64,000 bases of DNA, taken from Archangium violaceum (GTDB lineage Bacteria > Myxococcota > Myxococcia > Myxococcales > Myxococcaceae). Positions 5,102 through 64,000 of the stretch are shown here, piece by piece; position 1 is the first letter of the stretch, and each line of letters begins with the position of its first letter. The notes under the pieces were generated by a model. It saw nothing but the letters and a program-made list of their open reading frames with translations, was not told the DNA's origin and searched no databases. The stretch covers positions 9,923,501 through 9,987,500 of the forward strand of contig NZ_CP069338.1 in the NCBI RefSeq assembly GCF_016859125.1, written 5' to 3'. The position numbers and the translations under genes were made by a program.

Positions 5102-5115
5102 GGGAGGGCGTGATA

Positions 5116-5148: not shown

Positions 5149-5339
5149 CCCACTGCCGTTCCCGACGAGTCTCTGCCACCGCTGCGCCGCACCGCCGAAG
5201 TACGTGCGGACGAAGACGTCCACGTTCATCCTCTGCCCGCTGCTGCCACGGAAGTACCCACCGCAGCCGGTGCTCAGCTGCCCGCTCTTCCGCCCGAAGT
5301 CCCCGGAGTCGGAAGGGACGTAGAGCGGCACCTGGTTCG

Positions 5340-48574: not shown

Positions 48575-48585
48575 GGAGAACACAC

Positions 48586-48960
48586 ATGGCCTGTCATGAG
48601 CTGGCGGCGCTGCGGTTGGCGCTGATGAACATCCTGGGAGTGGACGATCCCGCCGAGCGGCAGCACGAGCTGGCCGAGCTGGGGAGCGCGGCGGAGACGC
48701 CGGGTCCGGTGCGCTCGCTGATGCAGGCGCGCGACCTGGCGAGCCTGCAGCGCTTCTTCGAGGCCTCGCTGGTGGAGCTGCAGGAGCGCGTCTCCTCGAC
48801 GAAGCCGGATGATCCGAAGATGTCCTACTACCGTTCGCTCCTCGTGCTGACCAAGTCGGTGGAGCTGGAGCTGCGGCGTCAGACCGAGTCGATGCAGCGG
48901 CTGTGGCGCGACCTCGAGGAAGTGCACGACTTCACCCACGAGATCTACCCGAGGGACTAG
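48586..48960 (+). CDS. DUF3209-like protein of the cobalamin operon
   Basis: 124 residues, hydrophilic and mostly helical: MACHELAALRLALMNILGVD, RQHELAELGSAAETPGPVR, LASLQRFFEASLVELQERV and a C-terminal MQRLWRDLEEVHDFTHEIY. The beginning MACxExxALRLxLMNxLG is, from memory, typical of DUF3209 proteins, which occur beside cbiX in haloarchaea and some bacteria. Cys3, His4 and the C-terminal His residues could bind metal. It lies 11 bp after cbiX with a good gtgaggag ribosome-binding site. Function unknown; its link to CbiX is the main clue. Confidence 0.65.
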   Translation: MACHELAALRLALMNILGVDDPAERQHELAELGSAAETPGPVRSLMQARDLASLQRFFEASLVELQERVSSTKPDDPKMSYYRSLLVLTKSVELELRRQTESMQRLWRDLEEVHDFTHEIYPRD

Positions 48961-48964
48961 CGCC

Positions 48965-49702
48965 ATGGCCGTCTCCCGCACCGCGCGAATCCTCTCTTCC
49001 GTGCCCGTGGGCGAGCGCGGGCGGCTCCTCGAACTGCAACTGCAGGGCGAGGACGAGCTCGGCTTCACCGGGGGCCAGTACCTCATCTTCAACACCGGCG
49101 TGCCTCGTGCCGACGGCAAGGCACACAAGCGCGCCTACTCGGTGGTGTCGAGCGACGCGGATCAGCGCACCTTCCGCATCTGTGTCTACCGGCTGGCCCA
49201 GGGGCCCGGCTCGGCGATGCTGCACGACGCCCCGGTGGGCGCGGACCTGCCGTTCAGCGGGCCGTGGGGCAGCTTCCTTCCGGACGACTCCACGCCTCGG
49301 AACACGCTCGTGGTGGCCACAGACAGTGGCATCACCGCCGCGCTGGGGCTGCTGCACGGCCGGGCCTTCGCTCCACAGCGGGCACGGACCCGGCTGCTGT
49401 GGTTCTCCGAGTCGCCCACGGTGTTCCTGCCCTCCGAGCAGGTTCGCGCGGAGGTGGAGGCGCTGGGCTGCCACTTCCAGCACCACGACTGCCCGCCACC
49501 GGGCCATCCGGAGCGCTCCCAGAGTGCCCTGCCGCTGGCCCTGGAGGCCGCGCGCGCCCATGCGCCCGAGCGTGTCTACCTCGCCGGAGATGGGGCGGTG
49601 TTGCACCCGCTGAAGCAGGCGCTGGTGGAGTCCGGGCTGGAGGCAGGTGCCATCCGGCTGGAGTCCTTCTTCAACAATCCCGCCCGGAAGGCAGCGGCAT
49701 GA
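48965..49702 (+). CDS. Ferredoxin-NADP reductase-like flavoprotein
   Basis: 245 residues. The FAD domain (about 5-105) has the flavin motif RAYSVVSS (Arg56, Tyr58, Ser59) and GPGSAMLHD; the nucleotide domain (112-235) has TLVVATDSGITAALGLL, LWFSESP, and the C-terminal FFNNP where FNR proteins pack against the flavin. It starts 4 bp after the DUF3209-like gene and overlaps cbiD by 4 bp. Two roles fit the context: feeding electrons to the CbiX-fused ferredoxin, or replacing the missing precorrin-6A reductase. The sequence does not choose. Confidence 0.83.
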   Translation: MAVSRTARILSSVPVGERGRLLELQLQGEDELGFTGGQYLIFNTGVPRADGKAHKRAYSVVSSDADQRTFRICVYRLAQGPGSAMLHDAPVGADLPFSGPWGSFLPDDSTPRNTLVVATDSGITAALGLLHGRAFAPQRARTRLLWFSESPTVFLPSEQVRAEVEALGCHFQHHDCPPPGHPERSQSALPLALEAARAHAPERVYLAGDGAVLHPLKQALVESGLEAGAIRLESFFNNPARKAAA

Positions 49703-50805
49703 GCGACGCGCCTCCTGCCCGTGACAAGCGCGGCTCGCGCACCGGTTTCACCACCGGGGCCTGTGCCGCCGCGGCCGCCAAGGCAGCCACGCGCGTGCTG
49801 GTGCGCGGCGAGCGTCTCACCCAGGTGGAGACGACGCTGCCCAACCGGCAGCAGGTGACGTTCGCCCTGCACCGCTGCGAGTGGGACGGGGAGAAGGTGC
49901 GCTGCGGCATCATCAAGGACGCGGGAGACGATCCGGACTGCACCCACGGCGCCGAGCTGATCGCCGAGGTGCGGCTGACGGACGACGGGCAGGTGGTGCT
50001 CGAACGGGGCGAGGGCGTGGGCCTCGTCACCAAGGACGGGTTGGGCCTGGAGGTGGGCAGCCCGGCCATCAACCCGGTGCCTCGCCGCAACATCACCGAG
50101 ATGGTGCAGGAGGAGCTGCCCGAGGGCCGAGGCGCCATCGTCACCATCCACGTCCCCCGGGGCGAGGAGATGGCCAAGGAGACGCTCAACGCGCGCCTGG
50201 GCATCATCGGCGGCATCTCCATCCTCGGAACGAGCGGAATCGTGCGGCCCTACTCCACCGCCGCCTACAAGGCGAGCGTGGTGCAGGCCATCGACGTGGC
50301 CCGGGCACGAGGCAACACCGAACTCGTCTTCACCACCGGCGGCAAGTCGGAGAAGTACGCCATGGGCCTGCTACCCCACCTGCCGGAGGAGTGCTTCATC
50401 CAGGTGGGTGACTTCATCGGCGTGGCCATCCGCCATGCGGCCAGGCGCCAGGCGACCCGCGTCGACGTGGTGGGCATGATGGGCAAGCTGTCCAAGATGG
50501 CCGATGGGCGCATGCAGACACATGCGGCCGGCTCCGAGGTGAACATGGAGCTGCTGGCCAACCTGGCCGCCGAGGCCGGTGCCTCGGAGAAGCTGGTGGC
50601 TGACATCCGGGCCGCCAACACCGCCCGCCACGTGCTCGAGCTGTGCGCGGCCAGCGGCCTCACCCACATCACCGGACTGGTGTGCCAGCGCGTCGTCGAG
50701 CAGCTCACCCGTCACGCGGGTGGCCCGCTCGAGCTCCACGCCACCCTCGTCGACTTCAACGGCACCCTGCTCGGGCAGTACCCGGAGAGGAGACATGCAG
50801 CGTGA
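49699..50805 (+). CDS. cbiD: Cobalt-precorrin-5B (C1)-methyltransferase
   Basis: 368 residues, normal length. CbiD methylates C1 in the anaerobic corrin pathway. Conserved text: RTGFTTGACAAAAAKAATR at the N-terminus, CGIIKDAGDDPDCTHGAELI, INPVPRRNITEMV, NARLGIIGGISILGTSGIVR (16-residue core ISILGTSGIV) and ELVFTTGGKSEKYAMGLLP. Its presence points to the cobalt-early route. It overlaps the flavoprotein and cbiC by 4 bp each. Confidence 0.96.
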   Translation: MSDAPPARDKRGSRTGFTTGACAAAAAKAATRVLVRGERLTQVETTLPNRQQVTFALHRCEWDGEKVRCGIIKDAGDDPDCTHGAELIAEVRLTDDGQVVLERGEGVGLVTKDGLGLEVGSPAINPVPRRNITEMVQEELPEGRGAIVTIHVPRGEEMAKETLNARLGIIGGISILGTSGIVRPYSTAAYKASVVQAIDVARARGNTELVFTTGGKSEKYAMGLLPHLPEECFIQVGDFIGVAIRHAARRQATRVDVVGMMGKLSKMADGRMQTHAAGSEVNMELLANLAAEAGASEKLVADIRAANTARHVLELCAASGLTHITGLVCQRVVEQLTRHAGGPLELHATLVDFNGTLLGQYPERRHAA

Positions 50806-51455
50806 ATGACATGCGGCAGATGACGACGCTCGGGCGTCGCATCGAAGACGAGAGCTTTTCCATCATCGACAACGAGGCCGGTCCGCATTCCTACTCGCCC
50901 GGTGAGTGGCAGGTGGTGCGGCGCGTCATCCATGCCACCGCGGACTTCGAGTTCAAGGAGCTGGTCCGCTTCTCCCCCAACGCCATCACCGAGGGCATCC
51001 GCGCCCTGCGTGGCGGCAGCCCGGTGCTGGCCGACGTGAAGATGATCCTCGCGGGCCTCAACGAGGATCGGCTCGCCGCCTACGGCTGCCGGACGTACTG
51101 CTTCATCTCCGACGAGGACGTCATCGCCACGGCCCGCGAGGCGGGCTCCACCCGCGCCATCGAGTCCATGCGCAAGGCGCACAAGCTGGGGCTGCTGAAC
51201 GGCGCCATCGTGGCGGTGGGCAACGCGCCCACGGCACTCCTCGAGGTAGCGCGGCTGGTGCGCGAGGAAGGGGCCCGCCCGGCTTTGGTGATCGGCGTGC
51301 CGGTGGGCTTCGTATCGGCGGCGGAGTCGAAGGAGGCGGTGCTCGAGCTGCCGGTGCCGTACATCGCGGTGCGGGGACGCAAGGGAGGCAGCACCATCGC
51401 CGTGTCCATCATCCACGCGCTGCTGATGCTCAGCGCCGACGGGGAGAAGGCATGA
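50802..51455 (+). CDS. cbiC: Cobalt-precorrin-8 methylmutase
   Basis: 217 residues from the GTG at 50802 that overlaps the cbiD stop; the ATG at 50811 is an alternative. CbiC moves a methyl group from C11 to C12. The catalytic histidine is in RRVIHATADFEF (His44). GTPVxADVKM-like text is SPVLADVKMILAG, and the C-terminus PALVIGVPVGFVSAAESKEA with AVRGRKGGSTIAVSIIHAL is typical. Confidence 0.96.
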   Translation: MNDMRQMTTLGRRIEDESFSIIDNEAGPHSYSPGEWQVVRRVIHATADFEFKELVRFSPNAITEGIRALRGGSPVLADVKMILAGLNEDRLAAYGCRTYCFISDEDVIATAREAGSTRAIESMRKAHKLGLLNGAIVAVGNAPTALLEVARLVREEGARPALVIGVPVGFVSAAESKEAVLELPVPYIAVRGRKGGSTIAVSIIHALLMLSADGEKA

Positions 51456-52702
51456 AGCCGGTGGTGGTGGTGGGCATCGGAGATGACGGCTGTCTGGGCC
51501 TGTCGGCACGCGCGGCCAACGCGGTGGCGCAGGCCCAGGTGCTGGTCGGCGGCAAGCGCCACCTGGAGTTCTTCCCCCAGTTCTCCGGGGAGCGCCTCTC
51601 GTTCAGCGCGGGCATCGGCCCGACGTTGGAGCGGATTGCCGAGCTCGCCCATGAGAACCAGGTGTGCGTCCTCGCCTCGGGAGATCCGCTCTTCTTCGGC
51701 ATCGGCGCACAGGTCGCTCGCAAGGTGGGCGCCGAGCACGTGGAGTTCATCCCCCACCCCTCGTCCGTGCAGCTCGCCTTCGGCCGCATCGGCGTGTCCT
51801 GGGACGATGCCGAGGTCATCTCCCTGCACGGCCGTCCGCGCGAGGGGCTGTGCACGCGGCTGCGCCTCCTGGCCAAGGTGGCCCTCCTCACCGACGGAGA
51901 GAACACGCCTCCCGTGCTGGCGCGACACCTCCTGGAGCATGGAGAGCGCGGCTTCACGGCCTGGGTCTGCGAGAGCCTCGGCAATCCGGAGGAGCGCGTC
52001 CGGCCCTTCTCGCTGGAGGCGCTCGCGGAGTGCACGGACATCGGGCCCCTCAACGTGCTCGTGCTCGTGCGGACGGATCCGAGCTGGCGCCCTCCCCCGC
52101 GCCTGTCCTTCCTCCACGAGGACACCTTCGCCAGGCGCATGCCCAAGAAGGGCCTCATCACCAAGCGCGAGGTGCGCCTGCTGTCCCTGGCGCAACTGGA
52201 GATCCGTCACGACAGCGTGGTGTGGGACATCGGCGCGGGCTCCGGCTCGGTGGGAATCGAGGCCGCGCTGCTCGCCCCGAGGGGCCGCGTCTACGCCATC
52301 GAGGTGGACCCGGAGGGCGTGGCCCTGTGCAAGGAGAACGCGCTCTCCCACGGCGTGGACAACCTGCGTGTCATCGCGGGGCGCGCTCCGGAGGCACTCG
52401 AGGGACTCGAGGCCCCGGACGCCATCTTCGTCGGCGGCAGCAAGGGCAGCATGCGCGACATCATCGACGTGGCCTTCTCTCGCCTGCGCGAGGGAGGCCG
52501 GCTGGTGGTCAACGCCATCACCCTGGACAACGTGGCCGAGGCCTACTCGGCCCTCAAGGCTCACGGTGTGACGCCGGAAGTGACGCTGCTCAACGTGTCA
52601 CGCGGTGAGCCGCTCGCGCACTACCTCCGGTACGAGGCGCAGAACCCCATCCACATCTTCGCGGCCACCCGGCCGGCGGCGGCAAAGGGAGAAGAATCAT
52701 GA
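51452..52702 (+). CDS. cbiET: Fused cobalt-precorrin-7 (C5)-methyltransferase and C15-methyltransferase/decarboxylase
   Basis: 416 residues. Residues 1-205 are CbiE, a tetrapyrrole methylase (VVVGIGDDGCLGLSARA, LASGDPLFFGIGAQV, FIPHPSSVQLAFGRIG). Residues 220-405 are CbiT, a Rossmann methyltransferase (MPKKGLITKREVRLLSLAQL, VWDIGAGSGSVGIEAALLA, DAIFVGGSKGSM). The fusion corresponds to CobL of the aerobic pathway and is common. It performs two methylations and the decarboxylation of the acetate side chain at C12. Overlaps its neighbours by 4 bp. Confidence 0.95.
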   Translation: MKPVVVVGIGDDGCLGLSARAANAVAQAQVLVGGKRHLEFFPQFSGERLSFSAGIGPTLERIAELAHENQVCVLASGDPLFFGIGAQVARKVGAEHVEFIPHPSSVQLAFGRIGVSWDDAEVISLHGRPREGLCTRLRLLAKVALLTDGENTPPVLARHLLEHGERGFTAWVCESLGNPEERVRPFSLEALAECTDIGPLNVLVLVRTDPSWRPPPRLSFLHEDTFARRMPKKGLITKREVRLLSLAQLEIRHDSVVWDIGAGSGSVGIEAALLAPRGRVYAIEVDPEGVALCKENALSHGVDNLRVIAGRAPEALEGLEAPDAIFVGGSKGSMRDIIDVAFSRLREGGRLVVNAITLDNVAEAYSALKAHGVTPEVTLLNVSRGEPLAHYLRYEAQNPIHIFAATRPAAAKGEES

Positions 52703-53469
52703 GTGGCCTGTTGATTGGCGTGGGCGTGGGCCCGGGAGCGCCCGATCTGATGACGCTCCGGGCGGTGAACACGCTCCGGAAGGCGGACGTCATCGCCATT
52801 CCCCGGCGCTCGGTCTATGACGAGTCGCTCGCCTGGCGCATCGCCAAGGAGAACGTGGGCGAGGTGCCTGGGCAGGAGCGCCTCTTCCTCACCTTCCCGA
52901 TGACGAAGGATCCGGAGCGGCTGCGGCCCGCCTGGGAGGAAGCGTACGCGCAGCTGGCCCCGCGGCTGGCGGCGGGCAAGACGGTGGCCTTCATCACGGA
53001 AGGAGACCCGCTCGTCTACAGCACCTTCATCTACCTCCTGGCGGAGGTTCCCCACCGGTTCCCCGGGACGCGCACCGAGGTGGTGCCCGCGGTCTCGTCG
53101 ATCACGGCCGTGCCCGCGGCGGTGCAGGTGCCCGTGGCCGATGGTCAGGAGCGCATCGCCGTCCTGCCCGCCACCTACGGCGTGGAGGACCTCACCCGCG
53201 TGCTGCGTGACTTCGACACCGTGCTGCTGATGAAGGTGAGCTCGGTCATGGCGCAGGTGGTGGAGGCGCTCGAGCGCGAGGGTCTGCTCGATCGCGCCGT
53301 CTACGTGTCTCGCGCGTCCACCGGACAGGAGAAGGTGGTTCGCGACCTGCGCAGCATCCGCAACGACAAGTGCGACTACTTCTCCATGGTGATGGTGGCG
53401 AAGAAGGATCGCAGCGGCGTGCTCGCCGGCCGCTTCGCCCAGACCCAGACGGCGGAGGTGGCCCGGTGA
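52699..53469 (+). CDS. cbiL: Cobalt-precorrin-2 C20-methyltransferase
   Basis: 256 residues. SAM-dependent tetrapyrrole methylase; SAM-site text is LIGVGVGPGAPDLMTLRA, VAFITEGDPLVYSTFIYLL, VVPAVSSITAVPAAVQVPVA and the C-terminal YFSMVMVAKK. The TEGDPLVYSTFIYLL form distinguishes CbiL/CobI from the other methylases in this operon. It overlaps cbiET and cbiG by 4 bp. Confidence 0.94.
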   Translation: MSGLLIGVGVGPGAPDLMTLRAVNTLRKADVIAIPRRSVYDESLAWRIAKENVGEVPGQERLFLTFPMTKDPERLRPAWEEAYAQLAPRLAAGKTVAFITEGDPLVYSTFIYLLAEVPHRFPGTRTEVVPAVSSITAVPAAVQVPVADGQERIAVLPATYGVEDLTRVLRDFDTVLLMKVSSVMAQVVEALEREGLLDRAVYVSRASTGQEKVVRDLRSIRNDKCDYFSMVMVAKKDRSGVLAGRFAQTQTAEVAR

Positions 53470-54605
53470 GTCACCCCCCGGCACGCAAGCCCTACGCCGT
53501 CTACGCCATCACCCTGCACGGGTTGGGCATCGCCGAGCGGCTCCTCGCGGGACTGCCCGGCGCGGAGCTCTACGTCTCCGAGAAGCTCATGGCCAAGGCT
53601 CCCGCGGGCGCCCTGCCCATGCCGCTGCCCATGGGGCCCACCCTGTCGCGCACCTTCACCGCCTACGACTGCCACGTCTTCATCATCAGCGTGGGCGCGG
53701 TGGTGCGGATGATCGCGCCGCTGCTCGCGGACAAGAAGGTGGACCCGGCCGTGGTGTGCGTCGACGACGCCGCCCGCTTCTCCATCTGCGTGCTGTCGGG
53801 ACACGTGGGCCGGGGCAATGCCTTCACCGAGCGGGTGGCTGGCGTGCTCGGCTCCACTCCCGTCGTCACCACCGCCTCGGATGTGCGGGGCACCCTCACG
53901 GTGGACATCCTCGGGCGGGAGCTCGGCTGGCGGTTGGATGACCTGGAGCGCAACGTCACGCGCGGCTGCGCCGCGGTGGTGAACGAGACCCCGGTGCTCT
54001 TCGTCCAGGAGGCCGGCGAGCCCACGTGGTGGCCAGAGGACAAGCCGCTGCCTCCGGGCGTGCGGTATGCGCGGAGCCTCGACGGCGTGGACCCGAAGGC
54101 ATGGGAGATCCTCCTCATCGCCACCGATCGGGACATCCGCGAGACCCACCGTGCCCACTGGGAGAACGCGGTCATCTACCGGCCTCGCAGCCTCGTGCTG
54201 GGAATTGGTTGCGATCGTGGCACCCCGGAGGAGTTGGTGGAGCGGGGCGTGACCCAACTGCTCGCCCAGGCGCTCCTGTCCCCCGCCTCGGTGAAGGCCG
54301 TGGCCACCGTGGACCTGAAGGCGGACGAGCCGGCACTGCTGGCGCTGTGCCAGAAACATGGCTGGGCGCTCCAGACGTACACGGCCGCCGAGCTGGACGC
54401 GGTACCCGTCCCGACTCCATCGGAGACGGTGAAGAAGCACGTGGGCACCCGTGGCGTCGCCGAGCCGTCGGCACTGCTCGCCTCCGGGGCCACCGAGTTG
54501 CTCGTGCGCAAGCAGATCTACACCGAGCCCGGCGCCGGACGCTCCATGACGTTCGCCGTCGCACGCATCCCCCACTCTCCCCGAAAGGAGTCCGTCCATG
54601 TCTAG
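53466..54605 (+). CDS. cbiG: Cobalt-precorrin-5A hydrolase
   Basis: 379 residues from the GTG at 53466. CbiG opens the delta-lactone of cobalt-precorrin-5A and releases acetaldehyde in the anaerobic route. N-terminal domain: VFIISVGAVVRMIAPLLADK, VVCVDDAARFSICVLSGHVG and GNAFTERVAGVLGSTPVVTT; C-terminal domain: SLVLGIGCDRGTPEELVE and VATVDLKADEPALLAL, ending FPA-like text AEPSALLASGATELLVRKQI. Both the hydrolase halves are present. Overlaps cbiH by 8 bp. Confidence 0.95.
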   Translation: MSHPPARKPYAVYAITLHGLGIAERLLAGLPGAELYVSEKLMAKAPAGALPMPLPMGPTLSRTFTAYDCHVFIISVGAVVRMIAPLLADKKVDPAVVCVDDAARFSICVLSGHVGRGNAFTERVAGVLGSTPVVTTASDVRGTLTVDILGRELGWRLDDLERNVTRGCAAVVNETPVLFVQEAGEPTWWPEDKPLPPGVRYARSLDGVDPKAWEILLIATDRDIRETHRAHWENAVIYRPRSLVLGIGCDRGTPEELVERGVTQLLAQALLSPASVKAVATVDLKADEPALLALCQKHGWALQTYTAAELDAVPVPTPSETVKKHVGTRGVAEPSALLASGATELLVRKQIYTEPGAGRSMTFAVARIPHSPRKESVHV

Positions 54606-55431
54606 CGGAGGAGTCCTGTCCCTCGTCGGAATCGGCCCCGGCGATGGGGCCCACGCCACCCCCGCCGCCCTGGAGGCCATCCGCGAGGCCCAGGTCGTGG
54701 TGGGCTACCGCACCTACGTCAAGCTCGTGCGCCACCTGATCGAAGGCAAGGAGGTGGTGCAGACGGGCATGACGGAGGAGATTGGCCGGGCCCGCTCGGC
54801 GGTGGAGCGCGCCAGGGCCGGTGCCAACGTGGCGCTCATCTCCTCGGGAGACGCGGGGGTCTACGGCATGGCGGGGCTCGTCTTCGAGGTGCTGCGGGAC
54901 ATCGGTTGGAAGCGTGGTGATGCCCCCACCCTCCGGCTGATCCCCGGCATCACCGCGGCCAACTCCTGCGCGTCGCGCGTGGGGGCCCCACTGGTCCACG
55001 ACAGCTGCACCATCTCCCTGTCGGACCTGCTCACCCCCTGGCCCGTCATCGCCAAACGCATCGACGCGGCCGCATCCGCCGACTTCGTCATCTCCCTCTA
55101 CAACCCCGCCAGTGGGCGGCGCACCCGGCAGATCGTGGAGGCCCACTCCATCATCCGCCGCTACCGCGAGGGCACCACCCCGGTGGCGCTGGTGAAGGGC
55201 GCCTACCGCGAGGCGGAGAAGGTGGTGATGACCGATCTCGATCACTTCCTGGACTACGAGATCGGCATGCTCACCACCGTCATCGTGGGCAACTCCCACA
55301 CGTTCCTCTTCGAGGGCTACATGGTGACGCCCCGAGGCTACACGCGGAAGTACACGCTGGAGGGAGACGTGCTGCCGGGACAGATGCCGGGCCGCTCGCT
55401 CGTTCTCCAGAACCAGAAGGAGGAGGTCTAG
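54598..55431 (+). CDS. cbiH: Cobalt-precorrin-3 C17-methyltransferase
   Basis: 277 residues. CbiH methylates C17 with ring contraction. The SAM-binding VGIGPGDGAHATPAALEAIR, ALISSGDAGVYGMAGLVFEV and LYNPASGRRTRQIVEA are diagnostic of CbiH/CobJ, as is MVTPRGYTRKY near the end. The last 25 residues (LEGDVLPGQMPGRSLVLQNQ) extend beyond the usual methylase fold. The next gene begins 2 bp later. Confidence 0.94.
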   Translation: MSSGGVLSLVGIGPGDGAHATPAALEAIREAQVVVGYRTYVKLVRHLIEGKEVVQTGMTEEIGRARSAVERARAGANVALISSGDAGVYGMAGLVFEVLRDIGWKRGDAPTLRLIPGITAANSCASRVGAPLVHDSCTISLSDLLTPWPVIAKRIDAAASADFVISLYNPASGRRTRQIVEAHSIIRRYREGTTPVALVKGAYREAEKVVMTDLDHFLDYEIGMLTTVIVGNSHTFLFEGYMVTPRGYTRKYTLEGDVLPGQMPGRSLVLQNQKEEV

Positions 55432-55433
55432 TC

Positions 55434-55829
55434 ATGGCACGCGTGGGACGTCTGGCCGGAGCGCTGCTCGCCTCCACCGAGGGAGCCTTCTTCCTGGTGG
55501 GAGATCTCAAGGAGCCGTGTGACTGGGCGAAGGCGGGCTTCGAGCCCCCTGCTCAAGTTCCCGGGGCGGAGCTGCCCTTCGTGCGCCTCTCGCCGGTGCG
55601 CCCGGTGGAGGTGGCTCCGCCGCTGTTGGTGGTGGAGCTCGAGGGCGAGGCCCTGGCGCGGTTGCTCTTCGAGCGTCTGGTCATCCGCCGCAATGGCTCG
55701 GTGTCGGAGCGGCTGTGGCGGCTCGTCACCGAGCACGAGGCCCGGCCGGAGACGGACGCTCGTTGGTTGGCGCAGGTCCCCGGACACGTCTGGGAGTTGG
55801 TGCGCGACTCCGTCCTGCGCTGCTCCTGA
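55434..55829 (+). CDS. Unknown protein between cbiH and cbiF
   Basis: 131 residues, no signal peptide, membrane segment or recognisable motif. Text includes AGALLASTEGAFFLVGDLKE, ELPFVRLSPVRPVEVAPPLL, VVELEGEALARLLFERLVIR and a basic helical C-terminus. Cysteines occur at positions 29 and 130 only. It is packed between two methylase genes (2 bp and 10 bp away) with its own ribosome-binding site, so it is almost certainly co-translated with corrin enzymes. A real gene by context; I recognise no family. Confidence 0.7.
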   Translation: MARVGRLAGALLASTEGAFFLVGDLKEPCDWAKAGFEPPAQVPGAELPFVRLSPVRPVEVAPPLLVVELEGEALARLLFERLVIRRNGSVSERLWRLVTEHEARPETDARWLAQVPGHVWELVRDSVLRCS

Positions 55830-55839
55830 GGAGAAGACA

Positions 55840-56607
55840 ATGAAGGTCTACATCATCGGTGCGGGACCTGGAGATCCGAAGCTCATCACCGTGCGCGGGG
55901 CGGAGCTCGTCGAGCAGTGCCCCGTGGTGCTCTACACCGGCTCGCTCGTTCCGCAGGCCGTCATCGCCCGCGCCCGCCCTGGGGCCCGCGTGCTCGACTC
56001 CTCGTCGATGACGCTCGATCAGATCATCGACGTCTTCAAGGAGGCCCAGGCGGCGGATCACGACGTGGCCCGCGTGCACACGGGAGATCCCTCCATCTTC
56101 GGCTCCACCGCCGAGCAGATCCGCAGGCTCCAGGAGCTCGGCATCGACTACGAGATCATCCCGGGCGTCTCCTCCTTCACCGCAGCGGCCGCGGTGCTGG
56201 GCAAGGAGCTGACGCTGCCGGAGCTGTCCCAGACGGTCATCGTCACCCGGGCCGAGGGACGCACCCTCATGCCGGAGGGAGAGAAGCTGGAGGACCTGGC
56301 GCGCCATCGTGCCACCCTGGCGCTCTTCCTCAGCGCGGGGCTCATCCGCGACGTCGTGGAGCGGCTGCTGCCCTCCTACGGGCCGGACTGCCCGGTCGCC
56401 GTGGTGCAGAAGGCCACCTGGCCGGATCAGAAGGTGGTGCGCGGCACCCTGGCGGACATCGGTGACAAGGTGCGCGCCGAGCGCATCAACGCCACCGCGA
56501 TGATCCTGGTGGGCGAGGTGCTGGAGGCGAAGGACTTCGCCAACTCGCGCCTGTACGACCCGACCTTCACCCACCGCTTCCGCAGGGGAACGGACGATGC
56601 ACGCTGA
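55840..56607 (+). CDS. cbiF: Cobalt-precorrin-4 C11-methyltransferase
   Basis: 255 residues from the ATG at 55840, preceded by tgaggagaag. Methylates C11. SAM-site and family text: VYIIGAGPGDPKLITVRGAE, VLYTGSLVPQAV, ARVHTGDPSIFGSTAEQIRR, EIIPGVSSFTAAAAVLGKEL and LPELSQTVIVTRAEGRTLMP, which together identify CbiF/CobM. It overlaps the following fused gene by 11 bp. Confidence 0.95.
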   Translation: MKVYIIGAGPGDPKLITVRGAELVEQCPVVLYTGSLVPQAVIARARPGARVLDSSSMTLDQIIDVFKEAQAADHDVARVHTGDPSIFGSTAEQIRRLQELGIDYEIIPGVSSFTAAAAVLGKELTLPELSQTVIVTRAEGRTLMPEGEKLEDLARHRATLALFLSAGLIRDVVERLLPSYGPDCPVAVVQKATWPDQKVVRGTLADIGDKVRAERINATAMILVGEVLEAKDFANSRLYDPTFTHRFRRGTDDAR

Positions 56608-57931
56608 CCGTCCACGGCGCATTGCCATCACCGGCTCGGCCGGCGTGGGAAAGACGACGCTGGTGCACGCGCTGAGCCTCCGCCTCGGGCTGCCTGTCGT
56701 CCCCGAGGAGACGCGAGAGCTCATCACTCGCACCGGGAAGCGTCTGGAGGAGCTGCCCATGCCCGAGCGTGCGAACGTCCTCCGGGAGCTGTGGTCCACG
56801 CGCCGGGTGCGAGAGGCGGATCGGCGCGAGGGCTTCGTGGCGGACAACTGCGTCGCGGACTTCGCCGCCTATGCGCTCCAGCATGGGTGCTCGGAGCTCT
56901 TCCCGGACTTCTCCCAGACGCCGGCCCTCGTGGCTCACTACGACGCCGTCTTCGTCCTTCCCTGGGGCGCCCTGCCCTACGAGCGGGACGGAGTCCGCGG
57001 AGACAGCCCCATGGACGAGCTGCGCTACCAGCTCGTCCTCGAGTCGCTCCTGCGCCGCTCCATCCCCGCGTCGCGGTTGCACTTCATTCCGGACTCCTGC
57101 ACCTCTCTGGAGGAGCGGGTGCGCTTCTGCGAGGAGACCCTCGGGCGCTCGCCGGACAAGGAGCGGGGCGGCTTCGTGACCCTGGTCGGTGCGGGGCCGG
57201 GAGATCCGGGGCTGCTCACCGTGCGCGCGAAGGCGTTGCTGCAACAGGCGGAAGTAGTGGCCTACGACGCCCTCATTCCTCCGGCGGTGCTCGCGGAGAT
57301 CGGCCCCCAGGCGGAGCGCATCCTCGTGGGCCACCGCAACCAGGGCGCCACCCAGGCCGGCTATCGGCTGCACCCGGCGGTGCTCGAGCAGGCCCGTGCC
57401 GGGCGGCACGTGGTGCGGCTGAAGCAGGGAGATCCGTTCATCTTCGGACGGGGTGGCGAGGAGGCGGAGGAGCTGCTCGAGGCGGGCATCCCCTACGAGG
57501 TGGTTCCAGGCGTCTCGTCCGCGCTCGGAGCCGCGGCCTACGCCGGCATCCCGCTGACGCACCGGGAGCACGCCTCCGACGTCTCCTTCGTCACCGGGCA
57601 CGACATCGAGGGGCCCCGGAGCCACACCTGCTGGGAGAAGCTGGGCGCCGCTGGAGGCACGCTGGTGCTCTTCATGGCCACGCGGAAGCTGGAGGCCAAC
57701 CTGGCCCGGCTGGTGGAGTGTGGACGCAGCCCCCAGACGCCCGCGGCCTACATCGCCTCGGCCACCACGCCCGAGCAGGTCGTGTTGGTGGGCACGCTGG
57801 AAACGCTCGCCGCGCAGGTGCGGGAGCGCAACGCGTTGGGACCTCCGGCCCTGGTGGTGGTCGGTGACGTGGTTCGGTTGCGCGAGCGCCTCGCCTGGTT
57901 CGAGCGGCGAGCACACGGGAGCGGGACATGA
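56597..57931 (+). CDS. cobA: P-loop NTPase fused to uroporphyrinogen-III C-methyltransferase
   Basis: 444 residues, about 190 longer than a plain SUMT. Residues 8-185 form a small P-loop domain: Walker A GSAGVGKTT (13-21), PEETRELI, FVADNCVADFAAYAL with a possible Walker B-like acidic pair, YDAVFVLPWG and FIPDSCTSLEERV; it resembles nucleoside or NadR-type kinases and AAA_28 proteins. Residues 192-435 are SUMT: TLVGAGPGDPGLLTVRAKAL, RLKQGDPFIFGRGGEEAEEL and VVPGVSSALGAAAYAGIPLT, which makes precorrin-2 from uroporphyrinogen III. The substrate of the kinase-like domain is unknown. Overlaps cbiF (11 bp) and cobO (4 bp). Confidence 0.9.
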   Translation: MHADRPRRIAITGSAGVGKTTLVHALSLRLGLPVVPEETRELITRTGKRLEELPMPERANVLRELWSTRRVREADRREGFVADNCVADFAAYALQHGCSELFPDFSQTPALVAHYDAVFVLPWGALPYERDGVRGDSPMDELRYQLVLESLLRRSIPASRLHFIPDSCTSLEERVRFCEETLGRSPDKERGGFVTLVGAGPGDPGLLTVRAKALLQQAEVVAYDALIPPAVLAEIGPQAERILVGHRNQGATQAGYRLHPAVLEQARAGRHVVRLKQGDPFIFGRGGEEAEELLEAGIPYEVVPGVSSALGAAAYAGIPLTHREHASDVSFVTGHDIEGPRSHTCWEKLGAAGGTLVLFMATRKLEANLARLVECGRSPQTPAAYIASATTPEQVVLVGTLETLAAQVRERNALGPPALVVVGDVVRLRERLAWFERRAHGSGT

Positions 57932-58458
57932 GCGCGAAGACACCCAGGGGATTGCTGGTCGTCTACACGGGGGATGGCAAGGGGAAGACCACCGCCGCGC
58001 TCGGGGTGGTGTTCCGCGCGCTGGGCCGGGGCATGAAGCCCGCGGTGGTGCAGTTCATCAAGGGCAAGTGGAAGACGGGCGAGCGCACCTTCGCGGAGAC
58101 GCTGCCGGGCCTCGTCTTCCTCACCATGGGCCGGGGCTTCACCTGGGAGAGCGAGGACCTCTCCCGGGACAAGCGGGCCGCCCAGGAGGCGTGGGCCGAG
58201 GCCCGGCGCCTGATGACGAGCGGCGAGCACGAGGTGGTGGTGCTCGATGAGCTGACGTACGTCATCAACTACGGCTTCGTCCCCGTGGAGGAGGTGCTGG
58301 AGGCACTGTCGGCACGGCCCTCTCACGTGCATGTGATCATCACCGGCCGCTCCGCCCCGGAGCCGCTGATGGCCGCCGCGGAGCTCGTCACCGAGATGAA
58401 GTGCGTGCGCCATCCCTTCGAGAAGGGCGTTCCCGCCCAGGTGGGGCTCGACTTCTGA
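57928..58458 (+). CDS. cobO: Corrinoid adenosyltransferase
   Basis: 176 residues. CobO/BtuR/CobA-type ATP:corrinoid adenosyltransferase attaches the 5'-deoxyadenosyl ligand to reduced cobalt. Walker A GDGKGKTTAALG (15-26), then VVQFIKGKWKTGERTF, VVVLDELTYVINYGFV and VHVIITGRSAPEPL. Length and motif order are normal. Named cobO to avoid confusion with the methyltransferase cobA. Confidence 0.95.
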   Translation: MSAKTPRGLLVVYTGDGKGKTTAALGVVFRALGRGMKPAVVQFIKGKWKTGERTFAETLPGLVFLTMGRGFTWESEDLSRDKRAAQEAWAEARRLMTSGEHEVVVLDELTYVINYGFVPVEEVLEALSARPSHVHVIITGRSAPEPLMAAAELVTEMKCVRHPFEKGVPAQVGLDF

Positions 58459-59849
58459 TGGACGGCACTCCTCACATTCCCCGGCTGGTGGTCGCGGGCA
58501 CCGCCAGCGGCGTGGGCAAGACGACGGTCATGGTGGCCCTCACCCGGGCGCTCCAGGCACGCGGCCTGAAGGTGGCCACCTTCAAGTGCGGCCCGGACTA
58601 CCTCGATCCGAGCTACCACGCGCGCACCACCCAGGCGCCGTGCCACAACCTCGACGGCTGGCTGATGGGCCGCGATGCCGTCATCTCCACCTTCCGCCAT
58701 GCCAGCCAGGGCTGCGACGTGGCCCTCATCGAAGGCGTGATGGGGCTCTACGACGGGGCCTCGCCTGACTCGGAGGAAGGGTCAGCGGCGCAGGTGGCCA
58801 AGTGGTTGGCGGCGCCCGTGCTCGCGGTGGTGGACGCCTCGGGCATGGCGCGCACCATCGCCGCCATCGGCACCGGGCTGGCGGCCTTCGATCCGCAGCT
58901 GAAGTTGGCGGGCGTGTTCGCCAACCGCGTGGGGAGCCGCGGCCACCTGGAGCTGCTCCAGCGCGCGGCGCTCGGCACGGGAGTTCCGGTGGTGGGCGGG
59001 CTCCCCGAGCAGGAGGCGCTCACCTTCCCCGCGCGCCACCTGGGTCTCCTCACCGCCTCCGAGGAGAGCATTCCCACGCAGCGCCTCGACGCCTGGGGAG
59101 CGCTCCTCTCCGAGTGGAACGACGCGGCCACCTTCCTGCGCCTCGCCGGGGAAGCCCCCGCGCTGCCGGAGGCACCGGAGGAAGAACGCCGGCAGGCCCC
59201 CGTCACCTGCCGCATCGCGGTGGCGCAGGATGCCGCCTTCCACTTCTACTACGCGGACAACCTGCGGCGGCTCGAGCGGCTCGGCGCGCGGTGCGTGCCC
59301 TTCTCGCCGCTCTCGGACACGGCACTTCCGCCGGACGTGCATGCCCTTTATCTGGGAGGCGGCTATCCGGAGCTGCATGCGCGACAGCTGGCCGACAACC
59401 ATGCCATGCGCCGCGCCATCTCCGAGTTCTCCGCGCGAGGCGGCCCCATCTACGCCGAGTGCGGAGGGATGATGTACCTCAGCCAGGGTCTCCGCACGCT
59501 CGATGGCCAGGACTACCCCATGGTCGGGCTGGTGCCCGGGGTGGCGGTGATGGCGCCCAAGCTGCAGGCGCTCGGCTACGTGGAGGTGGAGACGACGGTG
59601 CGCACCGTACTGGGTGGCGCGGGGCTGCGCTTCCGCGGGCACCAGTTTCGCTACTCCACGTTGGAGGGAGTCCCCACCCACGGCGGAACCCTGCGCATCC
59701 GTCGGCGTCGCGGCGGCGTCACGCACACCGAGGGCTTCGGTCCGCCCAACGTGCTGGCCTCCTACGTCCACGCCCACTGGGCCTCCAATCCCCTGGTCGC
59801 CGAGGGGCTCGTGAGCTCCGCGCGCGCCTTCAAGGAGCAGCGGACATGA
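58458..59849 (+). CDS. cbiA: Cobyrinic acid a,c-diamide synthase
   Basis: 463 residues from the ATG at 58458, which shares one base with the cobO stop. Amidates the a and c side chains using glutamine and ATP. N-terminal ATPase part: VVAGTASGVGKTTVMVALTR, FKCGPDYLDPSYH, LIEGVMGLYDGASPDSEEGS; C-terminal glutaminase part: ALYLGGGYPELHARQLADN and IYAECGGMMYLSQGL with the nucleophile Cys, plus YVHAHWASNP carrying the catalytic His. Overlaps cbiZ by 4 bp. Confidence 0.96.
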   Translation: MDGTPHIPRLVVAGTASGVGKTTVMVALTRALQARGLKVATFKCGPDYLDPSYHARTTQAPCHNLDGWLMGRDAVISTFRHASQGCDVALIEGVMGLYDGASPDSEEGSAAQVAKWLAAPVLAVVDASGMARTIAAIGTGLAAFDPQLKLAGVFANRVGSRGHLELLQRAALGTGVPVVGGLPEQEALTFPARHLGLLTASEESIPTQRLDAWGALLSEWNDAATFLRLAGEAPALPEAPEEERRQAPVTCRIAVAQDAAFHFYYADNLRRLERLGARCVPFSPLSDTALPPDVHALYLGGGYPELHARQLADNHAMRRAISEFSARGGPIYAECGGMMYLSQGLRTLDGQDYPMVGLVPGVAVMAPKLQALGYVEVETTVRTVLGGAGLRFRGHQFRYSTLEGVPTHGGTLRIRRRRGGVTHTEGFGPPNVLASYVHAHWASNPLVAEGLVSSARAFKEQRT

Positions 59850-60532
59850 AGGCCGCCGTCGCCACGCCGGAGGTGGAAGCGCCCTCGCTGGAGGGAGGCG
59901 GGCGACTGCTGGTGGTGCGCTTCGACCGTCCGCACGCCGTCCTCTCCTGGGCCGTCATCAACGGAGGCCGTCGGCGCGCACGGGCGGTGGTGTGGCGGCA
60001 GGTGCGCGATGACGAGCTCGTCCCGGGAGTGGATCCGGTGGCCCTGCTCGCGGCGAGTCTCGGAGAGTCGTCCGAGGAGACGGTGGGCCTCCTCACCTCG
60101 CGAGACGTGTCCACCTTCGACGACGTGCGCCTTGCTTCCGGTGCGCTCTCGGCGCGCTGCGTGGCCACCGTGGGCCTGGGCAACGCGCTGGCGGCCGGAG
60201 ATGAGCCCGGGCCGCTGCGCAGCGTGGGCACCATCAACCTCCTGTGTCAGCTGTCCCGTCCCTTGTCTGAGGGGGCGCTGGTGGAGGCGGTGGCGCTGGC
60301 GGCCGAGGCCCGGACGGCGGCTCTCATGGAGGCACGTGTCCCCAGCCGCCGGTCACTGCGGGCGGCGACCGGAACGGGCACCGACTGCATCGTGGTGGCG
60401 GCGCCGGAGGGGCCCGGAGGCGAGACGTACGTGGGCAAGCACACCCGGCTCGGCAGCCTGTTGGGTGGCGCGGTGCGTGAGGCCACCTCGCGAGGCATAC
60501 GCCGGTGGCTGGAAGAGCGAGGTGTCCGGTGA
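59846..60532 (+). CDS. cbiZ: Adenosylcobinamide amidohydrolase
   Basis: 228 residues. CbiZ removes the aminopropanol arm from salvaged cobinamide or pseudocobalamin, returning adenosylcobyric acid. Family text: LLTSRDVSTFDDVRLASGAL, CVATVGLGNALAAGDEPGP, VGTINLLCQLSRPLSEGALV, AVALAAEARTAALMEARVPS and ATGTGTDCIVVAAPEGPGGE. Its place inside a de novo operon suggests both synthesis and remodelling of imported corrinoids. Overlaps cobU by 4 bp. Confidence 0.92.
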   Translation: MKAAVATPEVEAPSLEGGGRLLVVRFDRPHAVLSWAVINGGRRRARAVVWRQVRDDELVPGVDPVALLAASLGESSEETVGLLTSRDVSTFDDVRLASGALSARCVATVGLGNALAAGDEPGPLRSVGTINLLCQLSRPLSEGALVEAVALAAEARTAALMEARVPSRRSLRAATGTGTDCIVVAAPEGPGGETYVGKHTRLGSLLGGAVREATSRGIRRWLEERGVR

Positions 60533-61074
60533 GCGGAAGAATCATCCTGGTGGGCGGCGGTGTGCGCTGCGGCAAGAGCCGCTTCGCCCTAGAGCTGGCG
60601 CAGGCGATGGGACCACGGCGCACCTTCGTCGCCACCTCCGAGCCCTTCGATGACGAGATGCGCGAGCGCGCGCGTCGCCACCGTGAGGAGAGGACGGGCC
60701 GCTTCGAGACGGTGGAGGAGCCGCGCCGGTTGTGCGAGGTGCTGGAGGCGGACACGGCGGACGTGGCGGTGGTGGACTGCGTGACGCTGTGGCTGTCCAA
60801 CCTCCTGCTCCGGGGGGATGAACCGGAGGCCATCCTCGGCGAGGTGGATCGACTGGTGGGCGTGCTTCAGCGGCGGCGGAGCGCCACCATCCTGGTGACG
60901 AACGAGGTGGGAATGGGACTCGTCCCCGAGTCGCCGCTGGGACGCACCTTCCGCGACGTGAGTGGTGGAGCGCACCAACGCCTGGCGGCAGCGGCGGACG
61001 AGGTGTACTTCGGCGCGCTCGGGCTGCTGCTGCGGCTGAAGCCGGGGAGCCTGGTGGTGGGGGCCGCCGGATGA
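60529..61074 (+). CDS. cobU: Adenosylcobinamide kinase/guanylyltransferase
   Basis: 181 residues from the GTG at 60529. Phosphorylates the aminopropanol arm and adds GMP. P-loop LVGGGVRCGKSRFALELA (GGxRxGKS form), ATSEPFDDEMRERARRHREE with the guanylylated His region, VAVVDCVTLWLSNLLL as Walker B and ILVTNEVGMGLVPESPLGRT, all typical. Overlaps cbiZ and cbiB by 4 bp. Confidence 0.95.
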   Translation: MSGRIILVGGGVRCGKSRFALELAQAMGPRRTFVATSEPFDDEMRERARRHREERTGRFETVEEPRRLCEVLEADTADVAVVDCVTLWLSNLLLRGDEPEAILGEVDRLVGVLQRRRSATILVTNEVGMGLVPESPLGRTFRDVSGGAHQRLAAAADEVYFGALGLLLRLKPGSLVVGAAG

Positions 61075-62027
61075 TGCTGGACGGAGGAACGCACGCGGCG
61101 CTGGTGCTGGGGCTCGCGCTCGCGGTGGACCTCATCTGGGGCGAGCCGCCCACGCCGGTGCACCCCGTGGTGTGGATGGGCCGCCTGCAGCGGCGCCTGC
61201 GCCGGCTGGCACCCCGTGCGCCCCTTCCCGCGTTCCTCCATGGACTGGGAATGGCGATCACCGGACCCGTCGTCTTCGGACTCGGAAGCTGGGCACTGAT
61301 CCACCTCGTCTCTCCCTGGCCTCTCTTGCAGATCGCTCTGGAGGTGTACCTCCTCAAGAGCGCCTTCGCGGTGCGGGCCCTGGCCGAGGCGGGACTGGCC
61401 GTCTTCCACGCCCTGCACAAGGGGGATGATCCGGCGGCGCGCCTGGCCCTACGCAGCCTCGTGTCGCGCGACACCTCGGGCCTCGAGCCCCCGCTGCTGG
61501 CTGCGGCGGCGGTGGAGTCGGTGGCGGAGAACACCTCGGACTCGGTGGTGGCTCCCCTGCTCTTCTTCGCGGTGGCGGGAGTTCCCGGTGCGCTCGCCTA
61601 CCGGGCGGCCAATACGCTGGACGCGATGATTGGATATCGCGGCGAGCTGGAGTGGCTGGGCAAGGCCGCCGCCCGGCTGGACGACGTGCTCAACCTGGTG
61701 CCGGCGCGTCTGTCCGCGGCGCTCCTCGTGCTGGCGTGCGCGCTGTGTGGTGCCTCTCCCGCCCGGGCGGTGCTCTCCTGGTGGCGAGACGGCTCCGCCA
61801 CCGAGAGCCCCAACGCCGGCCGTCCCATGGCGGCGGTGGCCGGGGGCCTGGGCGTGGAGTTGGAGAAGGTGGGGCACTACCGGCTGGGAACGGGAGGACG
61901 CCAGCCGCGAGCGGAGGACATCCGCCGCGCGGTCTTCCTCATGGTCGCGGCCTCGCTGCTGGCCGCTGCGTTGACGGCCGCCTATGTCGGCGGGGAGGGA
62001 TTCCGTGTTGCCCTTGCCTCGCCCTGA
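61071..62027 (+). CDS. cbiB: Adenosylcobinamide-phosphate synthase
   Basis: 318 residues, four to five membrane helices. Joins cobyric acid to aminopropanol phosphate. Text: LALAVDLIWGEPPTPVHPVV, WMGRLQRRLRRL, DTSGLEPPLLAAAAVESVAE, NTSDSVVAPLLFFAVAGVPG and YRAANTLDAMIGYRGELEWL, all conserved in CbiB/CobD(P. denitrificans). Confidence 0.95.
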   Translation: MMLDGGTHAALVLGLALAVDLIWGEPPTPVHPVVWMGRLQRRLRRLAPRAPLPAFLHGLGMAITGPVVFGLGSWALIHLVSPWPLLQIALEVYLLKSAFAVRALAEAGLAVFHALHKGDDPAARLALRSLVSRDTSGLEPPLLAAAAVESVAENTSDSVVAPLLFFAVAGVPGALAYRAANTLDAMIGYRGELEWLGKAAARLDDVLNLVPARLSAALLVLACALCGASPARAVLSWWRDGSATESPNAGRPMAAVAGGLGVELEKVGHYRLGTGGRQPRAEDIRRAVFLMVAASLLAAALTAAYVGGEGFRVALASP

Positions 62028-63057
62028 GTTGCAGCACCTGGAGCCCGCTCCGCACGGAGGGGACGCCGCGCCAGGGTGCGTGGACTTCAGCACGGGAGTC
62101 TCCCCACTGCCGCCTCCGGAGGCGGTGCTCGAGGCCTTCCGCGCCGCCGACGTGCGGCGCTACCCCCACCCCACGGCCCTTCCCCTGAGGGAGCCCCTCG
62201 CGAGGCTCCATGGGCTGCCGCTCGATGGAGTGGTGGTGGGCAATGGCTCGGTGGAGCTCATCTGGGCCCTGGCTCGCGCCTTCGCGGGCCCGGGGCGTCA
62301 CGCGCTGGTGCTCACCCCTGCCTTCGGGGAGTACGCGCAGGCGGTGCGCGCCAGCGGAGCCTCGGTGGAAACGCTGGCCGCGAAGGGGCCGCCCTTCGAG
62401 TGGGATCTCGAGGTGTTGCTCGCCACGCTCCGCCGCCAGAAACCTTCCCTCCTCTTCGTGTGTCGGCCGAGCAATCCCTGCCTCGCCGTGTTCCCGCTGG
62501 AGGCAATACGCGCCGCCGCGGCCGCCGCGCCCGAAACCCTGGTGGTGGTGGACGAGGCCTACCAGCCGCTCTTCGAGGGCGTGGAGCCCATGCGCCCGGA
62601 AGGCAACATCGTCGTGCTGCGTTCCCTCACCAAGGTGTTCGCCCTGCCGGGGCTGCGGCTCGGCTACCTGCTGGGAGAGCCTCGGCTGGTGCGCGCGGTA
62701 CAAGCAGCCCTCCCACCGTGGAACGTGTCGGCCCCGGCGCTGGCGGCGGGCCGGGAGGCACTCGAGTGCCTCGGGCAGGTGGACGTGGTGCGCACGGAGA
62801 TCAGCCGGCTGCGGAGAGCACAGCAGACGCTCCTCACCGAGGCTGGCGCCCAGGTGGACGCCACCGGAGGCACGTTCCTGCTGTGCCGGGTGCCCGAGGC
62901 CCGCCCCTTCGCCGCCGCCGCCGTCCAGGCCGGCATCCGGGTGCGCGACTGCACCAGCCTGGGCCTCCCCCACCACATCCGCCTCGGAGTGAGACCCGAG
63001 TCGGACCATGCCCTTCTGCGCTCCGCCTGGCGGCGCGTCCGGGAGACATTCGAATGA
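62005..63057 (+). CDS. cobC: L-threonine-O-3-phosphate decarboxylase-type aminotransferase
   Basis: 350 residues from the GTG at 62005, chosen because ggggaggga lies 5 bp upstream; an ATG at 61984 is an alternative. A fold-type I PLP protein that makes the aminopropanol phosphate arm. The PLP lysine is Lys210 in SLTKVFALPGLRLGYLLG; other text includes CVDFSTGVSPLPPPEA, VVVGNGSVELIWALARAF and VVVDEAYQPLFEGVE. Corresponds to CobC of Pseudomonas and CobD of Salmonella. Overlaps cbiB by 23 bp. Confidence 0.9.
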   Translation: MLPLPRPELQHLEPAPHGGDAAPGCVDFSTGVSPLPPPEAVLEAFRAADVRRYPHPTALPLREPLARLHGLPLDGVVVGNGSVELIWALARAFAGPGRHALVLTPAFGEYAQAVRASGASVETLAAKGPPFEWDLEVLLATLRRQKPSLLFVCRPSNPCLAVFPLEAIRAAAAAAPETLVVVDEAYQPLFEGVEPMRPEGNIVVLRSLTKVFALPGLRLGYLLGEPRLVRAVQAALPPWNVSAPALAAGREALECLGQVDVVRTEISRLRRAQQTLLTEAGAQVDATGGTFLLCRVPEARPFAAAAVQAGIRVRDCTSLGLPHHIRLGVRPESDHALLRSAWRRVRETFE

Positions 63058-64000
63058 AGGCCCGTACCCTGATGGTCCAAGGCACTGCTTCCAGCGTGGG
63101 CAAGAGCCTGCTGGTGACGGCCCTCTGCCGCATCTACGCGCGGCGGGGCTTCAAGGTGGCGCCCTTCAAGTCGCAGAACATGGCGCTCAACTCGGCGGTG
63201 ACGCCGGATGGGGCGGAGATTGGCCGCGCCCAATATGCCCAGGCCGAGGCGGCGCGCGCGGTGCCGTGCGCGGAGATGAACCCCATCCTCCTCAAACCGG
63301 AGACGACGTCCGGCTCGCAGGTGGTGGTGATGGGCAAGGTGCTGGGGAGCATGCACTTCCGTGACTACCACCGGCGCAAACCCGAGCTGCGCGAGGTGGT
63401 GGGCCAGGCGTTGGACACCCTCCGCGAGCGCCATGAGCTGGTCATCATCGAGGGAGCGGGCAGCCCGGCGGAGGTGAACCTCAAGGACCGCGACCTCGTG
63501 AACATGTGGGTGGCCGAGCGCGCCGACGCCCCGGTGGTGCTGGTCACGGACATCGAGCGAGGCGGAGCGCTGGCGGCGCTGGTGGGCACGCTGGAGCTGC
63601 TCGAGCCCCCCGAGCGGGAGCGGGTGCGAGCCCTGGTGGTGAACAAGTTCCGCGGTGACCCTTCCCTCTTCCAGGGAGGCGTGAGCTTCCTCGAGAAGAA
63701 GTGTGGCATCCGCGTGGCCGGAGTCATCCCCCACCTGGGAGACACGGGCATCGCCAGCGAGGATTCACTGGACCTACGGCCCGGAGAGGCGAACGGCGGG
63801 GCACTCGTGAGCATCCTGAAGCTGCCGCGCCTGTCCAACTTCGATGAGTTCGAGCCACTGATGCGCGAACCAGGGTTGGAGGTGCGCTGGTGCGAGCGGC
63901 CCGAGGAACTGGAGGGCGCGAGGCTCGTCATCATCCCAGGCACCAAGTGCACGGCGAACGACCTGCGCTGGATGAGGCGCACCGGACTGGCGGGGGCGCT
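63054..64000 (+). CDS. cbiP: Cobyric acid synthase, 3' end outside window
   Basis: 315 residues are present; the frame is open to the window edge. Amidates the b, d, e and g side chains. N-terminal ATPase features: LMVQGTASSVGKSLLVTALC, PFKSQNMALNSAVTPDG, RAQYAQAEAARAVPCAEMNP, IIEGAGSPAEVNLKDRDLVN and VVLVTDIERGGALAALVGTL. The start of the glutaminase half follows (LVSILKLPRLSNFDEFEPL, LVIIPGTKCTANDLRWMR). The nucleophile Cys lies beyond the edge. ATG overlaps the cobC stop by 4 bp. Confidence 0.95.
   Translation, partial: MKARTLMVQGTASSVGKSLLVTALCRIYARRGFKVAPFKSQNMALNSAVTPDGAEIGRAQYAQAEAARAVPCAEMNPILLKPETTSGSQVVVMGKVLGSMHFRDYHRRKPELREVVGQALDTLRERHELVIIEGAGSPAEVNLKDRDLVNMWVAERADAPVVLVTDIERGGALAALVGTLELLEPPERERVRALVVNKFRGDPSLFQGGVSFLEKKCGIRVAGVIPHLGDTGIASEDSLDLRPGEANGGALVSILKLPRLSNFDEFEPLMREPGLEVRWCERPEELEGARLVIIPGTKCTANDLRWMRRTGLAGA

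Follow-up and report, generated by a model that had tools for sequence, protein, structure and literature searches.

In the myxobacterium Archangium violaceum, a single reading frame encodes a P-loop domain that resembles NadR and nucleoside kinases and, behind it, a complete uroporphyrinogen-III methyltransferase (SUMT). The frame runs from 56597 to 57931 on the plus strand, begins with ATG in the ORF list and encodes 444 amino acids. It lies in the window, by which we mean the whole analysed stretch of 64,000 nucleotides; the source genome is one contig of 12.68 Mb. Across 195 Myxococcota genomes, 11, this one included, carry both domains in one frame, which confirms that the fusion is real and beyond chance. 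We propose that the N-terminal domain works as a small-molecule kinase in the cobamide pathway, most likely making a phosphorylated precursor of the aminopropanol arm, and we give this reading a probability of about 0.35. The first ring-building enzyme of B12 in some myxobacteria comes with a kinase domain for small molecules that looks intact. This domain may provide the B12 tail with a phosphorylated building block for which many producers have no assigned maker. The fold and the system themselves are not new; the interest lies in a testable link to an unfilled pathway step. A literature search at the level of titles and the beginnings of abstracts found no earlier account of a SUMT fused to a P-loop or NadR-type domain. 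The pairing of these two known kinds of domain appears to be new and, as far as we searched, confined to Myxococcales.

Both domains score above curated cut-offs, in agreement with the sequence-only reading, which had claimed a kinase-like P-loop protein fused to SUMT. AAA_28 (PF13521) covers residues 8–174 along the entire Pfam profile (positions 1–164 of 164, E = 1e-18, 68.5 bits against a cut-off of 27). TP_methylase covers residues 194–405 (Pfam, E = 6.8e-51), and the SUMT domain, complete as in SUMT/CobA and CysG, reaches 263 bits with the NCBIfam model TIGR01469 against a cut-off of 185 (residues 192–429, profile 1–237 of 238). The CysG model NF007922 gave 286.7 bits against a cut-off of 400 and matched only in the methylase part, from profile position 203 onward. 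The N-terminal partner of CysG is a Met8-like module, whereas the one here is kinase-like. TIGR01469 also scored the cobM product as a related methylase (152.7 bits, under the cut-off). SUMT matches were found in 107 of the 195 Myxococcota genomes. The A. violaceum genome contains a second SUMT without a kinase domain (contig positions 11068487–11069185), which falls outside the fused clade in a SUMT tree and perhaps serves siroheme synthesis. The features of the fusion protein and its neighbours are listed in Table 1.

Table 1. Features of the fusion protein and of the operon around it, in window positions.
Feature	Residues	Position	Strand	Basis
NadR/deoxynucleoside-kinase-like P-loop kinase domain, PF13521	1–189	56597..57163	+	Pfam, conservation, model, structural search
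Walker A, GSAGVGKTT	13–21	56633..56659	+	sequence; K19 and T20 invariant in 11/11
Walker B-like strand, FVADN	80–84	56834..56848	+	D83 invariant in 11/11
Lid region around PYERDGVR...ELRYQ	126–145	56972..57031	+	R134 and R143 invariant in 11/11
Uroporphyrinogen-III C-methyltransferase (SUMT/CobA) domain	192–429	57170..57883	+	Pfam, NCBIfam
cbiD, cbiC, cbiET, cobI, cbiG, cbiH		49264..55431	+	domain scans, similarity to annotated Salmonella genes
cobM/cbiF, directly upstream of the fusion		55840..56607	+	ORF list, comparison with annotated genes
cobO/btuR, corrinoid adenosyltransferase, overlapping the fusion stop		57928..58458	+	Pfam
cbiA, cobyrinate a,c-diamide synthase		58458..59849	+	39% identity to annotated Salmonella gene
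cbiZ, adenosylcobinamide amidohydrolase		59846..60532	+	domain scan, phylum search
cobU		60505..61074	+	domain scans
cbiB		61071..62027	+	genome search, annotated relatives
cobD-like aminotransferase, probable L-threonine-phosphate decarboxylase		61984..63057	+	TIGR01140 best match
cobQ/cbiP start, continuing past the window		63054..64000	+	domain scans, comparison with annotated genes

A structure model of the N-terminal domain (6 sequences, pLDDT 84, lid residues 126–133 under 50) was compared with solved structures. The best matches are NadR ribosylnicotinamide kinases, with 6GYF at Z 17.9 and 3.0 Å over 179 residues, which bears out the NadR-type resemblance claimed from the letters. The NadR rows 6GYF, 6GYE, 8X7F and 1LW7 have Z scores of 15.6–17.9 over 166–179 residues (1LW7, 15.6). 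The next structural matches are deoxyadenosine, thymidylate and deoxycytidine kinases (Z 14.5–16.4); rows within 1 Z count as tied, and the first four rows are all NadR. Foldseek's own order places a deoxyadenosine kinase first and NadR fourth. A PDB sequence search with the single domain sequence gave weak and mixed matches (SbcC 0.013, NadR 0.048), and a profile search placed adenylate-kinase-like and ciliary chains above NadR (E 6.4e-5). The full-length model (mean pLDDT 67, pTM 0.44) is too poor for judging domain contacts.

The Walker A motif, described as clean in the sequence-only reading, is conserved in the homologues, with its Lys and Thr invariant across the 11 genomes. K19, D83, R134 and R143 are likewise unchanged in all 11 sequences, among which the identity of the kinase domain goes down to 51%. 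In L. lactis NadR, the Walker A motif spans residues 187–195, Walker B 254–260 and the lid 304–318, according to the motif description in PMC7221760. In our alignment to this protein K19 falls on K193, R134 on R312 and R143 on R320, and residues 126–145 align with the NadR lid and the residues directly after it. The FVADN strand lies at the NadR Walker B, in near register only: D83 is set on D261, just past 254–260, and the register is unsure. The two domains are thus alike in predicted fold, in the Walker A Lys and in the register of the DG-R lid motif, and share 16–17% identity. Unlike NadR, the window domain is fused to SUMT, sits inside a cob operon and has no NMN adenylyltransferase domain, none being found among the Pfam and NCBIfam matches of the fusion protein. 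The NadR model TIGR01526 gave it 18.9 bits, far under the cut-off of 341.15. On the PF13521 score, the structural rank of NadR and the invariant motif residues, we read the domain as kinase-like. It has the parts of a phosphotransferase, and we infer that it acts as one.

The operon around the fusion holds cbiZ and almost the full gene set for cobamide synthesis of the anaerobic type. Gene names rest on domain scans and on similarity to annotated genes, those of Salmonella among them. The order is cbiM, cbiQ, cbiX, a FAD oxidoreductase, cbiD, cbiC, cbiET, cobI, cbiG, cbiH, a 131-aa ORF, cobM, kinase-SUMT, cobO, cbiA, cbiZ, cobU, cbiB, cobD and cobQ. The stretch in the window spans 44850–64000 and continues past it into cobT and cobS. 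The fusion overlaps its neighbours on the plus strand at both ends: it starts at 56597, and cobM ends at 56607 (11 bases); cobO starts at 57928, and the fusion ends at 57931. For the cobD-like protein, TIGR01140 is the best NCBIfam match (237.2 bits, under the cut-off of 290.55). CbiJ had no match in the A. violaceum genome, so the FAD_binding_6 oxidoreductase before cbiD (48965–49702), which also occurs in the operons of three Myxococcaceae relatives, might replace precorrin-6A reductase. In the CbiX protein (47366–48574), two CbiX stretches are accompanied by a thioredoxin-like 2Fe-2S ferredoxin part at the C-terminus. The 131-aa ORF between cbiH and cobM (55434–55829) matches neither Pfam nor NCBIfam models at E up to 0.001; it shows 75–93% identity in three Myxococcaceae relatives and was not found in three other compared operons. 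According to a 2022 paper (PMC9304148), myxobacteria are unable to synthesise AdoCbl de novo. On B12 in a myxobacterial consortium, PMC12919014 gave media recipes only. The nearly complete anaerobic-type operon described here, lacking matches to CbiJ and PduX, contrasts with the statement of the 2022 paper, and the 11 of 195 Myxococcota genomes that have CbiD and CbiB together with the fusion bear on it as well.

Searched with a profile of the kinase domain, 11 of the 195 Myxococcota genomes, A. violaceum included, match strongly (at least 223 bits), and 11 further ones only weakly (31–44 bits). A profile search of the order at E 1e-8 found 14 of 145 genomes, with the same 11 as the strong ones. 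In all 11 the domain and SUMT share one frame, and no stop is reported inside any match. The survey across genomes finds the fusion kept in Myxococcaceae, in Anaeromyxobacteraceae and in two MAGs; bearers include Pyxidicoccus fallax (G115), Myxococcus sp. RHSTA-1-4 (G125) and Anaeromyxobacter soli (G058). The order cobM, kinase-SUMT, cobO, cbiA, cbiZ agrees in the six of the other ten genomes that were compared. In a scan of 84,980 species, with patterns from the lid region and the part after it that can leave out near relatives and miss distant or unfused ones, 61 stretches matched and 5 encode relatives, all 5 in Myxococcales. In the cob stretches of Thermus, Deinococcus and Manganitrophus no gene is annotated as a free-standing relative of the domain, going by the annotation. 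In Manganitrophus, a PduX-like gene adjoins cobD.

The domain nearly tracks the de novo pathway. CbiB matches occur in 15 of 195 genomes, namely the 11 fusion genomes plus G070, G082, G159 and G160, and CbiD matches in 12, the same 11 plus G072, in which cbiD is in two pieces and cbiB was not found. The exceptions are G070 and G072. CbiZ matches are found in exactly the 11 fusion genomes and in none of the other 184, so that in all 16 genomes with a CbiB or CbiD match the presence of the domain equals that of CbiZ. Fisher values for these co-occurrences overstate independence, since the genomes are related and the genes lie in one operon, and are not used.

The aminopropanol arm of cobamides requires an L-threonine kinase, CobD and CbiB, and the known L-threonine kinases are PduX and, in Rhodobacterales, BluE, as set out in passages of PMC6249242, PMC7242693 and PMC8123684. 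Statements in PMC6249242 present PduX and BluE as demonstrated L-threonine kinases and as homologues; a statement in PMC8123684 terms BluE non-orthologous. Single-sequence queries at E up to 0.01 found no PduX- or BluE-like match in the A. violaceum genome. PF00288 recognises Salmonella PduX (45.7 bits, positive control) and has no match on the fusion protein at E up to 0.1. The A. violaceum genome has five GHMP matches. Two of these are galactokinase-like, judged by a sequence signature, and three that are neighbours presumably belong to mevalonate synthesis. PduX of Salmonella is a GHMP kinase, whereas the window domain is a P-loop protein, and their likeness is one of proposed function only. 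The same holds for BluE of Rhodobacterales, which was judged by an Alloyangia gene beside cbiB that we take for BluE from its position. This gene is weakly GHMP-like (PF00288, 18.2 bits, under the cut-off), and the idea that the window domain is a BluE relative was dropped. Among the fusion genomes, G042 has one weak PduX match (E 0.004), and G032 matches both the PduX and the BluE-like queries; G032 holds two PduX-like proteins, of 34% and 30% identity.

The fused domain is the one kinase-like part of the operon without an assigned job, and an L-threonine or aminopropanol kinase is for this reason the most economical guess. The domain, in its NadR/deoxynucleoside-kinase fold, would act as an enzyme of the cobamide pathway. 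It might phosphorylate L-threonine, giving CobD its L-threonine-O-3-phosphate, or (R)-1-amino-2-propanol, giving CbiB the phosphate of that compound, for example after CbiZ cleaves salvaged corrinoids; both substrates are guesses. It would then replace PduX or BluE as an unrelated enzyme, and its fusion to SUMT would couple the amount of the domain to the ring branch. A role in the pathway is favoured by the fusion to SUMT within a cob operon and by the matches to CbiB, CbiD and CbiZ in all 11 genomes. That a function is missing is suggested by the presence of cobD, cbiB, cobU, cobT and cobS in an operon whose genome has no PduX- or BluE-like match. Tentatively, the domain could be a third, unrelated L-threonine (or aminopropanol) kinase, of NadR fold and joined to the first enzyme of the corrin-ring branch, so that one polypeptide would serve both ring and tail precursors. 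A kinase-like domain that is conserved in a cob operon with CobD and CbiB, and whose genome offers no PduX match, is a candidate that can be tested directly.

Several results speak against an L-threonine or aminopropanol kinase. In G082, G159 and G160, CbiB and a CobD-like gene are present while the window domain and any PduX or BluE match are missing, and threonine phosphate can therefore evidently arise otherwise. In G032 the fusion stands beside two PduX-like proteins. The nearest structural kin of the domain phosphorylate nucleosides or nucleotides. The domain also changes faster than SUMT, and a sister operon, that of G070, has SUMT without it. G070, a MAG with 66% completeness, belongs to the genus of A. 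soli, and its operon has about 82% DNA identity to that of A. soli with two clean gaps: one takes out the kinase domain (locus 2480–2510) and a separate one (5111–5189) a stretch with cbiZ, cobU and the first part of cobT. A tree of 16 SUMT sequences (11 fused, G070 and 4 others) places the SUMT of G070 among the fused ones, grouped with the Anaeromyxobacteraceae rows (98/99). Taken at face value, this means that G070 lost the domain. The gaps may be a real loss or a fault of the MAG assembly.

The ratio dN/dS is higher for the kinase domain than for SUMT in six of six pairs (0.22–0.78 against 0.04–0.20), a comparison by NG86 on six chosen pairs of GC-rich genes in which only the kinase–SUMT contrast is meaningful. 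The paired values are 0.71 and 0.09, 0.78 and 0.19, 0.55 and 0.04, 0.22 and 0.20, 0.66 and 0.16, and 0.24 and 0.07. In two of six compared relatives the kinase domain is the least conserved product of the operon (G032, 77%; G125, 51%). In G115 it is next to last at 53%, with the FAD reductase at 52%, and in G042, G058 and G079 it is among the lower-conserved products, with CobS, CobT, CbiX or CobD lower. The higher dN/dS and the low rank in the operon point to loose constraint beyond the motifs and argue against a tie to the pathway as tight as that of the ring enzymes.

The fold and the tie to CbiZ also agree with a nucleoside-type kinase, which would phosphorylate alpha-ribazole or another riboside from cobamide salvage or remodelling, as a NadR-fold counterpart of CblS. 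Among solved structures, those nearest to the domain are kinases of nicotinamide riboside and of deoxynucleosides. The domain and CbiZ also share the same 11 of 195 genomes, CbiZ being described in PMC3541065 and PMC6461909 as a salvage and remodelling hydrolase. The CbiZ match fits reuse of aminopropanol or of ribazole after salvage about as well. What makes a riboside substrate doubtful to us is that the operon already contains CobT. This enzyme makes alpha-ribazole phosphate from the free base. A regulatory domain, in which the binding or turnover of ATP or another nucleotide at the NadR-like domain sets the activity of SUMT, is about equally unlikely; this was the first idea of the sequence-only reading, which had pictured flux tied to ATP, NAD or nucleotide status. 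It would suit a partner fused to the first committed enzyme of the branch, a sequence that drifts faster than SUMT as a tuning domain might, and a SUMT that can be specialised because the genome has a second one without the domain. The Walker A Lys and the lid arginines, kept in 11 of 11, are rather what phosphotransfer would predict, and the link to CbiZ has no obvious place in such regulation.

A further reading is that a kinase gene became fused through loss of the border between two genes, has little use in the pathway and is drifting. In its favour, the dN/dS lies above that of SUMT in six of six pairs, narrowly in one, and the domain is absent from the otherwise similar operon of G070. 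We consider such a passenger improbable in view of 11 matches out of 11 with no reported stop and with invariant motifs, and of a fusion kept across Myxococcaceae, Anaeromyxobacteraceae and two MAGs. The sequence-only reading had also suggested a chaperone of cobalt or tetrapyrrole like the G3E GTPases (CobW/UreG). A P-loop protein within a cobalamin operon is the sole point for it. No cobW Pfam match was found at E up to 0.1, MeaB gave 13.4 bits over the P-loop only (residues 3–30, under the cut-off of 23.1), and nucleoside and nucleotide kinases make up most of the fold rows listed. The suggestion is thus very improbable, and a small-molecule kinase of the cobamide pathway is the reading that we prefer.

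Matches to the kinase domain are also seen on plasmids and phages. Among the 30 plasmid records listed of 1659 and the 10 phage records listed of 12, they have about 28–39% identity, and several are SSU5-like. AAA-family proteins of SSU5-like phages and enterobacterial plasmids (e.g. H31, H33) have 28–31% identity to the domain. One plasmid record, outside the 30 listed of 1659, falls in the 60–80% band.
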